Shown here: positions 3,722 through 27,049 of the stretch, in pieces | Numbering within the stretch: position 1 is the first letter of the stretch | Layout: each line of letters begins with the position of its first letter | Source: Streptomyces sp. NL15-2K | GTDB lineage: Bacteria > Actinomycetota > Actinomycetes > Streptomycetales > Streptomycetaceae | NCBI RefSeq assembly: GCF_030551255.1 | Contig: NZ_CP130630.1 | Location: forward strand, 6,181,501-6,245,500 | Length of the DNA: 64,000 bases | Direction: 5' to 3' | The notes under the pieces: model-generated | What the model saw: only the letters and a program-made list of their open reading frames with translations | Databases searched by the model: none | What the model was told of the DNA's origin: nothing | Translations under genes and position numbers: made by a program

Positions 3722-4171
3722 GTGATCCGTGTGAGGAGAACCGTTGCGGCCCTCGGCGCGCTCGTGGCCGTCACAGCGGCGGCAGCCCCGGCCTCAGCCG
3801 CGACGGCCGACGACAACCGTACTTACATCGGCTTCATCGCGCCGACAGCCGGCCAGGCCGTGCAACTCGGGGTCGACGGAGGGACGATCCACTACTGCTT
3901 CCGCTGGGCCGGCGGCGTCAACACGGGCGCGCCGACCGACGCCATGTCCGGAATGGAGCTGTGGAACCCCTACATCGGCCGCTGGGACAAGGATGCCGAC
4001 TGGAAGTTCAGCCGGAATCTGCGCTGGACCGAACTCACGGCCCAGCTCTTCGCGAACGCGGACAACGTGTCGGGCGACACCTTCCCCTGCGAGGGGAAGC
4101 CGCTGTCGGCGGAGCGGAAGCTCCCCAACCCCCTTCCGGACGTCGACGTCTACTACGTGGACTTCCGCTGA
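3722..4171 (+). CDS. Small secreted protein of unknown function
   Basis: 149 aa from a GTG at 3722, with a good ribosome site AGAGAAGGAG 7 nt upstream, which decides the start. The N-terminus is a Sec signal peptide (VIRVRRTVAAL..., Ala-rich core, cleavage likely after ASAA near residue 28). The mature part is about 120 residues, rich in aromatic residues, with two cysteines (HYCFRW and FPCEGK) that could form one disulfide once exported. No catalytic motif or known domain is recognised. It stands alone between att scars and may be cargo of an old element. A secreted cell-surface or inhibitor protein is possible but not shown. Confidence 0.75.
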   Translation: MIRVRRTVAALGALVAVTAAAAPASAATADDNRTYIGFIAPTAGQAVQLGVDGGTIHYCFRWAGGVNTGAPTDAMSGMELWNPYIGRWDKDADWKFSRNLRWTELTAQLFANADNVSGDTFPCEGKPLSAERKLPNPLPDVDVYYVDFR

Positions 4172-4616
4172 CAGCCTCGCGGGTGAACGCCGACTGAGGT
4201 GACTCGCGGGCGGCCGAATCGGACGGTGCGGTGCCCGGATTCCGCACCGCGCCGCCCATCGCGCCAAGGAGCCGTACGGCGCCCGGCGGTAGTGCCTGGA
4301 CCACGCGATGGGCGGCCCCCGGCGGAGCGTCGCATCCCCACCGTGGCTCAGGTCGACGCCCTCGCCGATCACGTCGGACCTCGCCGGCGTCCCACGGTCT
4401 GCCTCGGCGAGCACGGCCTTCTCCGCCCGCAGAGCCGACGGGCCTCCGCCACAGGGGCATCGATCGCCAGCCGCTGAAGATCGCGGACAGGCGCGCCGAC
4501 ACTGAGTGGACGAACGGTCGTCGCGCACCCCGGCGACACCAAGCCCGAGGCGGGCACCCGCACCGTGTACCTCCTGGAGTTCCTCCGCTCGGACCTCCGC
4601 ATCCACGTGGAGCTGT
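4172..4616. other. Spacer without a recognisable gene
   Basis: No coding content I can support. Immediately to the right the reading becomes the C-terminus of a tyrosine integrase, so this stretch probably contains the deletion junction that removed the integrase body. Confidence 0.4.
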
Positions 4617-4953: not shown

Positions 4954-4999
4954 TGGAGCGGGTGACGAGAATCGAACTCGCGCTCTCAGCTTGGGAAGC
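4954..4999 (-). repeat. tRNA-Gly(CCC) 3'-half fragment (att scar 2)
   Basis: 46 nt covering the acceptor 3' strand, T-arm, variable loop and the 3' side of the anticodon arm (anticodon CCC within TTCCCAA on the minus strand). Homology stops in the anticodon stem, the typical crossover point of tRNA-targeting integrases. CCA is encoded. The rightward flank is element DNA of family A. Confidence 0.82.
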
Positions 5000-25490: not shown

Positions 25491-25606
25491 ATAACAAACA
25501 AACCCCAGGCCGCTGACCTGACCCTATGAGGGCCGGGCCCCCTTCCCTGCTCAGCCCGGTGATTCCTATCGTCCGGGTATGCACGAGCTCAGGAAGGAGG
25601 CCCTCA

Positions 25607-26614
25607 ATGTCTGTCTACGTCGGTATCGACGTGCACCGCAAGCGGTCGCAGATTGCGGTGGTCGAGGACGATGGCGCGGTGCGGGTGAACCGGAACGTGC
25701 CCAATGGGGTGGAGCCGGTGCTGTCGGTGATCGGGGATCTTCCGATCGGTGCGCCGGTCGCCTTCGAGGCCGCCTACGGCTGGGGCTGGCTGGTGGAGCT
25801 GCTGGAGGACTACGGCTTCGAGCCGCACCTGGTGCACCCGCTGCGGTGCAAGGCCATCGCCTCCGCCCGGCTGAAGAACGACAAGGTGGACGCGGCGACC
25901 CTCGCGCAGCTGCTGCGCGCGGATCTGCTGCCGGAGGCATGGATCGCCCCGCTGGGCGTGCGGCAGCAGCGGGCCCTGGTGCGGCACCGCTGCCAGCTGG
26001 TCCGTCTGCGCACGCTGCTGCGCAACCGCGTCCACGCCGTCCTGGCGGATTACGGCTGCGACCGCCCGGGCAGCTATTTCACCTCCCCGGGACGGGCCTG
26101 GCTGGAGGGCCTTGATCTGCCGGACGCCTCGCGCCGCGTGGTCGACGACCTCCTCGGTCTGATCGACGCCCTCAAAGAACCCATCGACGCTCTCGATGAA
26201 CAACTGGTCGCGCACGCGCGCGGTGATCCGCGGGTCAAAGCCCTCACCCAGCTGCCCGGCGTGGGCACGCTCACCGCCCTGATCATCGCAGCCGAGATCG
26301 GCGACGTCACCCGCTTCCCCTCCGCCCGCAAGCTCGCTGCCTGGGCCGGGCTCACCCCCACCGTCCGCAGCTCCGACCTCACCGTCCGGCACGGTCACAT
26401 CTCCAAGCAGGGCTCGCCCTGGCTGCGGTGGATCTTGTGCGAGGCAGCCCAGACCGCGAAACGTTCACCGGACTTCGCCGCTACTTACCAGCGCCTCGCC
26501 CACCGCCGCGGCAAGAAGATCGCCACCACCGCGATCGCCCGCCGCCTGCTGGCCCGCGCCTACCACCTCCTGCGCGCCGTCCCAGCCCCACACGACCGGC
26601 AGGGGGCCCGATGA
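25607..26614 (+). CDS. IS110-family DEDD transposase (bridge-RNA recombinase)
   Basis: 335 aa from ATG 25607, ribosome site AGGAAGGAGG 6 nt upstream. N-terminal RuvC-like DEDD domain: D in YVGIDVHRK, E in AFEAAYGWGW, DD region in NDKVDAATLAQLLRADL. Coiled linker about 130-215. C-terminal Tnp_20 domain with LPGVGTLTALIIAAEIGDV, AAWAGLTPTVR and the catalytic serine region SKQGSPWLRW. Known members recombine target and donor DNA guided by an RNA made from the element's own end. Full length, no stops. Confidence 0.93.
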   Translation: MSVYVGIDVHRKRSQIAVVEDDGAVRVNRNVPNGVEPVLSVIGDLPIGAPVAFEAAYGWGWLVELLEDYGFEPHLVHPLRCKAIASARLKNDKVDAATLAQLLRADLLPEAWIAPLGVRQQRALVRHRCQLVRLRTLLRNRVHAVLADYGCDRPGSYFTSPGRAWLEGLDLPDASRRVVDDLLGLIDALKEPIDALDEQLVAHARGDPRVKALTQLPGVGTLTALIIAAEIGDVTRFPSARKLAAWAGLTPTVRSSDLTVRHGHISKQGSPWLRWILCEAAQTAKRSPDFAATYQRLAHRRGKKIATTAIARRLLARAYHLLRAVPAPHDRQGAR

Positions 26615-26639
26615 CACTGACCGACAACAACCGCCAGGG

Positions 26640-26800
26640 GCGGCCGAAGACACCGGGTGAGCTCGTAAAACCCCATGAGACGGCCTCGCGGCCGCGCTCG
26701 ATGACCTGACTGAGCAGCCCGGATCCCCGAACCACGGTCATGGCGCCGGCCTGTCCAGCCGGACGCCGAATGGGTGGATGCGAGACCACTCCGCCGGCCA
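26640..26800 (+). ncRNA. Candidate bridge RNA in IS right end
   Basis: Two guide-bearing loops can be drawn. Loop 1: GGG/CCC and GCTC/GAGC outer stem (26655-26664 with 26712-26720), inner hairpin CGGCC-tcgc-GGCCG, AAACCCCA (26668-26675) on the 5' side and TGACCTG (26702-26708) on the 3' side. These equal the two halves of the occupied target read on the minus strand. Loop 2: ACGGTCA (26734-26740) and ATGGGTG (26770-26776) around hairpin GGCG-CCGGC...GCCGG-a-CGCC, matching the element's own joined ends (6 of 7 and 7 of 7). Each guide includes the core dinucleotide. Exact transcript ends are not visible. Confidence 0.75.
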
Positions 26801-27002
26801 CAAGAGCATCGGGGACGTCAACGACCGCAGCCCTGAACATCCGTGACGCTTCCTCGGCGTCCGAGCCGGAGGCCGACGAGCGGCGGTCGGGACCGCGAGG
26901 AAGCTCCACAAGGAAAACGCCCCGGCATCCAACCGAAAGGCCGCAGGCGGTGGCCGTCTACGACCCTTGACAGGCCCGGCCCTCATGGGTGGGGTTTCTC
27001 TC

Positions 27003-27049
27003 TGGAGCGGGTGACGAGAATCGAACTCGCGCTCTCAGCTTGGGAAGCT
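27003..27049 (-). repeat. tRNA-Gly(CCC) 3'-half fragment (att scar 8)
   Basis: 47 nt, acceptor through anticodon loop, CCA encoded. Its terminator is split by the IS at 25521-26991. Family A flank follows (CTACGGCGCTTGGGCGG). The rightmost scar; no 5' half exists on its right. Confidence 0.82.

Follow-up and report, generated by a model that had tools for sequence, protein, structure and literature searches.

A predicted bridge RNA in the right end of an IS1111-type insertion sequence of Streptomyces, with a left target guide that covaries with the insertion site

We describe an insertion sequence of Streptomyces sp. NL15-2K that is best explained as an IS1111-type element of the IS110 family in which an RNA encoded in the right end would guide recognition of both the target and the donor; we put the probability of this reading at about 0.93. 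Four lines of evidence are read from sequence comparison: the anatomy of the predicted RNA, a fold conserved among relatives, the covariation with the target of both its left target guide and a donor handshake base, and a paralogous target that is unoccupied. The window, that is, the whole stretch of 64,000 nucleotides that was analysed, covers 6.18-6.25 Mb of the 12.4-Mb genome. An earlier note, made from the letters of the window, had read a bridge-RNA architecture in this element, and our results support that interpretation. Right-end bridge RNAs (seekRNAs) of IS1111 elements have been in print since 2024 (PMC11187229, PMC11208160), so the type is already known, and the element is a new, well-documented case of it.

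Table 1. Features of the element and its target, in window coordinates
Feature	Position	Strand	Basis
Insertion sequence, IS110 family, IS1111 layout, one TG core counted (26990-26991)	25521..26991	+	Ends from second copy L001 and unoccupied paralogous site L119
Left flank of target, TGACC + core TG	25514..25520	+	Uninterrupted in L119
Left subterminal inverted repeat, 14 bp	25526..25539	+	Identical to right-end repeat
DEDD transposase/recombinase, 335 aa, GLTPTVRSSD (Ser-Asp) motif	25607..26614	+	PF01548, PF02371, NF033542, IS621 8wt6 alignment
Predicted bridge RNA (seekRNA)	26652..26814	+	23-relative alignment, fold, covariation, model matches
Left target guide, AAAACCC + core CA	26667..26675	+	Covaries with target over 35 insertions
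Right target guide, TGACC + core TG	26702..26708	+	Invariant in 23 aligned RNAs
Target-loop handshake bases AC (= first bases of left end)	26709..26710	+	Second base tracks left end, weak
Left donor guide, ACGGTCA	26734..26740	+	6/7 complementary to left end with core
Right donor guide, ATGGGTG	26770..26776	+	7/7 with right end and core
Donor-loop handshake base G	26777..26777	+	Tracks target base adjoining core
Right subterminal inverted repeat, 14 bp	26973..26986	+	Identical to left-end repeat
Right flank of target, core TG + GGGTTT	26990..26997	+	Uninterrupted in L119
3' part of tRNA-Gly(CCC), not an intact gene, beside target hairpin	27010..27049	-	Intact gene in L119

Results

The element and its transposase

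The non-coding ends of the element measure 86 nt on the left and 377 nt on the right (core included), and the predicted RNA lies in the long right end, as is characteristic of the IS1111 group. The subterminal inverted repeats are perfect and fall within the 7-17 bp given for that group (PMC11208160). The earlier assignment to the IS1111 type, with the RNA in the right end, is borne out by this short left end, long right end and pair of repeats. A second copy (L001), 1.4 Mb away, is identical at 1487 of 1491 positions, in an alignment that takes in some flanking target bases; it occupies another locus, where the 13-bp target is identical, and carries the same guide. The closest named relatives come mostly from Streptomyces and Kitasatospora. 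In one relative (L031), the left end occurs twice in tandem upstream of the transposase (2831-2878; 2908 onward). We also considered a promoter assembled across the circle junction: TTGACA is present in the right end, and the sole −10-like hexamer seen, TATGAG, lies in the left end 23 nt off, as counted by eye, so we claim no promoter.

The transposase carries the two domains expected of the IS110 family, DEDD_Tnp_IS110 (PF01548) and Transposase_20 (PF02371), matches the NCBIfam model NF033542 ('IS110 family RNA-guided transposase'), and can be aligned with the IS621 recombinase (8wt6). In that alignment, the motifs GID, FEA and NDKVDA stand opposite GID, IEA and NKTDTVDA of IS621, as expected of a DEDD (RuvC-like) domain; we take the catalytic residues to lie within these motifs. 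Where measured, the transposases of relatives are 55-90% identical to the query over the best segment.

The C-terminal motif of IS1111 transposases is given as GL-P----S(t)G, with the variants SG, TG and occasionally TA (PMC11187229). Here, GL-P and the serine, the presumed catalytic residue, are retained, and the glycine is replaced by aspartate, so the motif does not conform. Ser-Asp is found in every relative listed in one comparison, as well as in L054 and L163 (Rhodococcus opacus), and Ser-Gly in eight more distant relatives. Since the feature is itself variable, we regard Ser-Asp as a variant of this clade, one that lowers strict membership in IS1111.

Anatomy and conserved fold of the predicted RNA

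The consensus fold consists of an outer and an inner stem and two successive loops, each built around one hairpin. The target loop is closed by CCGGG (26653-26657) with CCCGG (26718-26722) on the outside and by GCTC (26661-26664) with GAGC (26712-26715) on the inside, and contains the hairpin CGGCC-TCGC-GGCCG (26681-26694); the donor loop contains GGCG-CCGGC...GCCGG-A-CGCC (26742-26767). The two loops thus display segments complementary to target and donor, respectively, as in seekRNAs. All strings quoted in the earlier note are present base for base, AAACCCCA being the last 8 bases of the left target guide. The two-loop structure indeed lies within the region proposed there, 26640-26800, and the conserved RNA extends slightly further, to about 26814. 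The count of donor matches given there, 6/7 and 7/7 against the joined ends (AGGGT-CA-CCCAT on the minus strand), is correct. An order like that of IS621 had also been claimed: inside the RNA it holds (target loop before donor loop, left guide before right guide), but relative to the transposase gene it is reversed. There, pairing is with the top strand for the 5' guide and with the bottom strand for the 3' guide, as Siddiquee et al. describe for IS1111; in IS110 they report the opposite arrangement (PMC11187229).

Folded singly, the window sequence is no more stable than its shuffled versions (z −0.69; 47 of 200 shuffles as good), and single-sequence folding was dropped as support for the RNA. 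The support for the fold therefore rests on comparison. In the alignment of 23 relatives, 97.4% of 736 cells are paired, compared with at most 42.0% in slid controls, a percentage that is biased upward because the structure was derived from the same alignment. Absence of a conserved fold in homologues, named in the earlier note as a refuting outcome, is not what we see, and compensatory changes are present: in 24 cells both partners have changed, compared with 6.1 in shuffles, and the covariation score is 0.120, against 0.056, with none of 500 shuffles as high, counts that may carry some bias from kinship among the sequences. The number of further pair types differs less (13 against 10.5; 16 of 500 shuffles). 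A covariance model built from the alignment recovers the predicted RNA in 15 of 249 genomes of the family (E 1e-4) and in 2 of 394 genomes of the class (E 1e-3), the element's own genome being included in both counts. Rfam gave no match at the gathering score, and the RNA region matched no plasmid or phage DNA at E 1e-5.

The left target guide follows the insertion site

The comparison of guides with sites comprised 35 insertions with 23 distinct guides, all of them insertions in which both guide and right flank could be read. Out of 41 groups, the six left out were one pooled group lacking a right end (L071, L073 and L084, with no element, and L067, L110 and L111, with the RNA present), L075/L033, where the right flank ends at the contig end, L049/L099, where no right end was found, L052 and L113, where no guide could be parsed, and L138, which is the window itself. 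Guides were shuffled among guide groups 20,000 times. Identity between guide and target over positions 1-7 was 5.00, compared with 2.76 after shuffling (sd 0.26, maximum 3.73), and no shuffle reached the observed value, a comparison that leaves room for misread element ends; the outcome was again 0 of 20,000 when U:G pairs were allowed. The same loop 1 guides at different targets, named beforehand as the outcome that would count against a bridge RNA, are thus not the general pattern, and the left target guide covaries with the target in relatives, as a seekRNA guide should.

Counted from the core, observed identities at positions 1-4 are 0.96, 0.81, 0.39 and 0.73 (shuffled: 0.63, 0.52, 0.29 and 0.27), and at positions 5-8, 0.76, 0.68, 0.67 and 0.35 (shuffled: 0.32, 0.38, 0.35 and 0.40). 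These values delimit the left guide as positions 1-7 plus CA, with position 8 outside; position 3 is close to chance (1319 of 20,000 shuffles). For eight insertions with 11-nt guides, a one-base bulge lifts the identity from 3.9 to 6.25 of 8; when a bulge is likewise allowed against targets belonging to other guides, the average is 4.6, and 4 of 20,000 random draws reach 6.25. The columns of the left guide have a mean entropy of 1.23 bits, compared with 0.22 bits in the rest of the target half; all other columns average 0.49 bits, and 20 of 147 are as variable as the left guide.

The fit between guide and site has exceptions. One multi-copy element carries a single guide, CAAAGCTGCA, at six imperfect sites identical to it at 3-6 of 7 positions. 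The genome concerned (G142) contains no exact site for this guide and three with one mismatch, and within two mismatches there are 48 places, compared with 79 for the reversed pattern, that is, no excess. Given the lack of exact sites, the imperfect insertions do not reflect exact sites passed over. In another relative, L042, guide and site match at only 2 of 8 positions; this is possibly a decaying copy. The donor loop region of the L042 RNA contains an extra insert (around 4036-4179).

Near-fixed guides and handshake bases

The right target guide is invariant and hence uninformative for covariation. The TGACC flank is present at 23 of 27 insertions, the remainder having AGGCC, AGACC, TGAGC or TCACC. 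Loci were chosen with patterns containing TGACCTG, which favours this invariance, and 8 of 28 places in one such set were without an element. When 44 loci obtained from protein similarity were searched with the model, free of any such pattern, there were 26 matches, among which only L044 and L052, both at contig ends, lie outside the aligned or counted set. The donor loop is mostly near-invariant among relatives, and the second base of the left donor guide differs among them.

In the IS621 handshake model, the base that follows the right donor guide pairs with the target base adjoining the core (PMC11208158). We compared these two bases at 37 places: the 35 insertions, L075 (a contig fragment of a counted element) and L113 (without a parsed guide). 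The combinations of RNA base and flank base were G/G at 8 places, C/C at 22, T/C at 6 and C/G at 1; counted by distinct guides, they were C/C 16, G/G 5, T/C 1 and C/G 1 (Fisher p 1.8e-4). The single C/G misfit is L042, the relative whose guide mismatches its site. In the target loop, the second handshake base is identical to that of the left end at 26 of 30 places (C/C 23, T/T 3, A/C 4), evidence that is weak because the T/T cases come from one genome.

Target sites in the genome

The occupied site, reconstructed on the minus strand as AAACCC-CA-GGTCA, is the one given in the earlier note. In the genome, TGACCTGGGGTTT occurs uninterrupted at 3 places exactly and at 51 with one mismatch, compared with 2 for the reversed pattern; 28 of these 54 places belong to one repeat family. 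One exact place, L119, consists of an intact tRNA-Gly(ccc) gene followed by AGAGAGAAACCCCAGGTCAGCGGCCTGGGGTTTG, in agreement with the window flanks joined, and is an unoccupied paralog of the window site. The empty site thus has a single TG core, and the flanks on either side of the element belong to the target. The window target forms the 5' arm of a terminator-like hairpin after tRNA-Gly(CCC), which presumably acts as a terminator. The 3' end of tRNA-Gly(CCC) is repeated along the window, at 4961, 13792, 18503 and 27010 and also at 545 and 14924, with 8 places in the genome between 6179458 and 6263798; most adjoin a terminator-like hairpin containing TGACCTGGG. We read this series as integrative elements arrayed in tandem at a single tRNA gene. 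As a general target, tRNA terminators are not supported: ARAGORN found an intact tRNA at 1 of 33 other insertion loci (L083, with the tRNA about 0.7 kb from the right end).

The L001 copy is placed between the arms, TGGCAGATCTGTTCCA and TGGAACAGATCTGCCA, of a palindromic repeat with a 72-bp unit and invariant 16-nt arms. The same genome (G000:C1) contains 34 other copies with perfect arms, for example, at 3377613-3377684 (L148-L162); exact arms were not found in 25 relatives searched. The loop of the repeat, AAAACC(C/G)CAGGT(G/C)A, resembles the target of the element, and none of the 34 other perfect-arm copies contains the exact 13-nt target motif or an intact element. In one copy (L153, G000:C1:4308753-4308824), 19 nt of the right end of the element are fused to half of the target, likely a relic of a third insertion, now lost.

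Discussion

Of IS1111 elements, 93.0% have a predicted bridge RNA, which in most cases lies in the right end (PMC11208160). Biochemical work has shown seekRNAs and their reprogramming, and one case of natural redirection has been described (PMC11187229). The element shares with the seekRNA elements ISEc11, ISPa11, ISKpn4 and ISPst6 an RNA downstream of the transposase gene, subterminal inverted repeats and the order of the guides, and with some of the IS1111 seekRNA elements a palindromic target (there REP or attC). It differs from them in its own target, a frozen right guide and the Ser-Asp motif; moreover, their RNAs and function are known from experiment (PMC11187229), whereas the present case is known by comparison. 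With the IS621 bridge RNA it has in common the succession of target loop and donor loop, left and right guides, a 2-nt core and handshake bases (PMC11208160, PMC11208158). IS621, however, belongs to the IS110 group, has its RNA in the left end and prefers matches at all nine non-core positions (PMC11208160), whereas position 3 is near chance in the natural sites described here.

If the element works as we propose, the right-end RNA would bind the DEDD recombinase and bridge target and donor. The 5' loop would read the target through the 9-nt left and the 7-nt right guide, and the 3' loop would read the joined ends of the element; the circle would then be inserted by recombination at the shared TG/CA core, with no target duplication beyond the core. 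To judge by published IS110/IS1111 work, the RNA is probably transcribed and bound by the transposase, and insertion probably runs through a circular intermediate and an exchange of strands. New sites in the clade would be reached mostly through an altered left target guide together with the handshake base, with the right target guide and the remaining donor guides near-fixed; mutation of the left guide is presumably what retargets the element.

We give hardly any credence to the notion that target recognition is due to the transposase protein alone and that the resemblance of guides to sites is coincidence or inherited similarity. The RNA is here predicted from sequence, and a protein could well read the constant right half, TGACC; yet the left half of the target varies and the left guide follows it beyond all shuffles, among transposases that are 55-90% identical to the query where measured. 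It is also very improbable that a folded hairpin, such as a terminator or a REP-like palindrome, is what the element recognises, and not a sequence. Both sites in this genome are palindromic, one a terminator-like hairpin and the other the palindromic repeat, but the covariation of guide and target requires that sequence be read; the 34 other perfect-arm repeats, devoid of the exact motif and of intact elements, and the scarcity of intact tRNA genes near the other insertion loci scanned likewise argue against this idea.

Similarity of guide and flank would also arise if an inserted element took its guide from the flank, the guide then following the site. We regard such copying as very unlikely: one element has an unchanged guide at six imperfect sites that differ from one another, a single guide is common to the two loci occupied in this genome, and a matching empty site, L119, exists without an element. 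Guidance of the recombinase by the right-end RNA is the explanation that we prefer.

One-arm retargeting, the lax third guide position, the longer guides and the Ser-Asp motif are possible additions to the known type. A precedent from the IS110 group is ISMch6 compared with ISEc21, where, as here, a related element has a modified target and one changed guide segment; that, however, is one case in a single copy (PMC11187229), whereas the clade described here provides 23 distinct guides over 35 insertions and a permutation test. In the passages that the literature search covered, we found no large natural series in which closely related IS1111 elements are retargeted through one arm, and likewise no handshake rule in IS1111, lax third position or Ser-Asp motif. 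We lean towards a general description of the clade in which the left guide and the matching handshake base change together and the rest is near-frozen, position 3 is free, longer guides are accommodated by a bulge, the motif is Ser-Asp, and the sites, in this genome, are palindromic.

If this description is correct, the handshake rule would extend from IS621 to IS1111 elements, and rules of natural reprogramming would be available for the latter. The bridge RNAs of both groups make their elements candidate programmable recombinases, the IS621 side being the better characterised. The clade is a natural reprogramming series, with 23 left guides, known sites and related transposases, that gives direct access to guide length, to the mismatch tolerated, to the bulge and to the constraint set by the handshake, and it illustrates how an element may change its home while its own ends stay the same.
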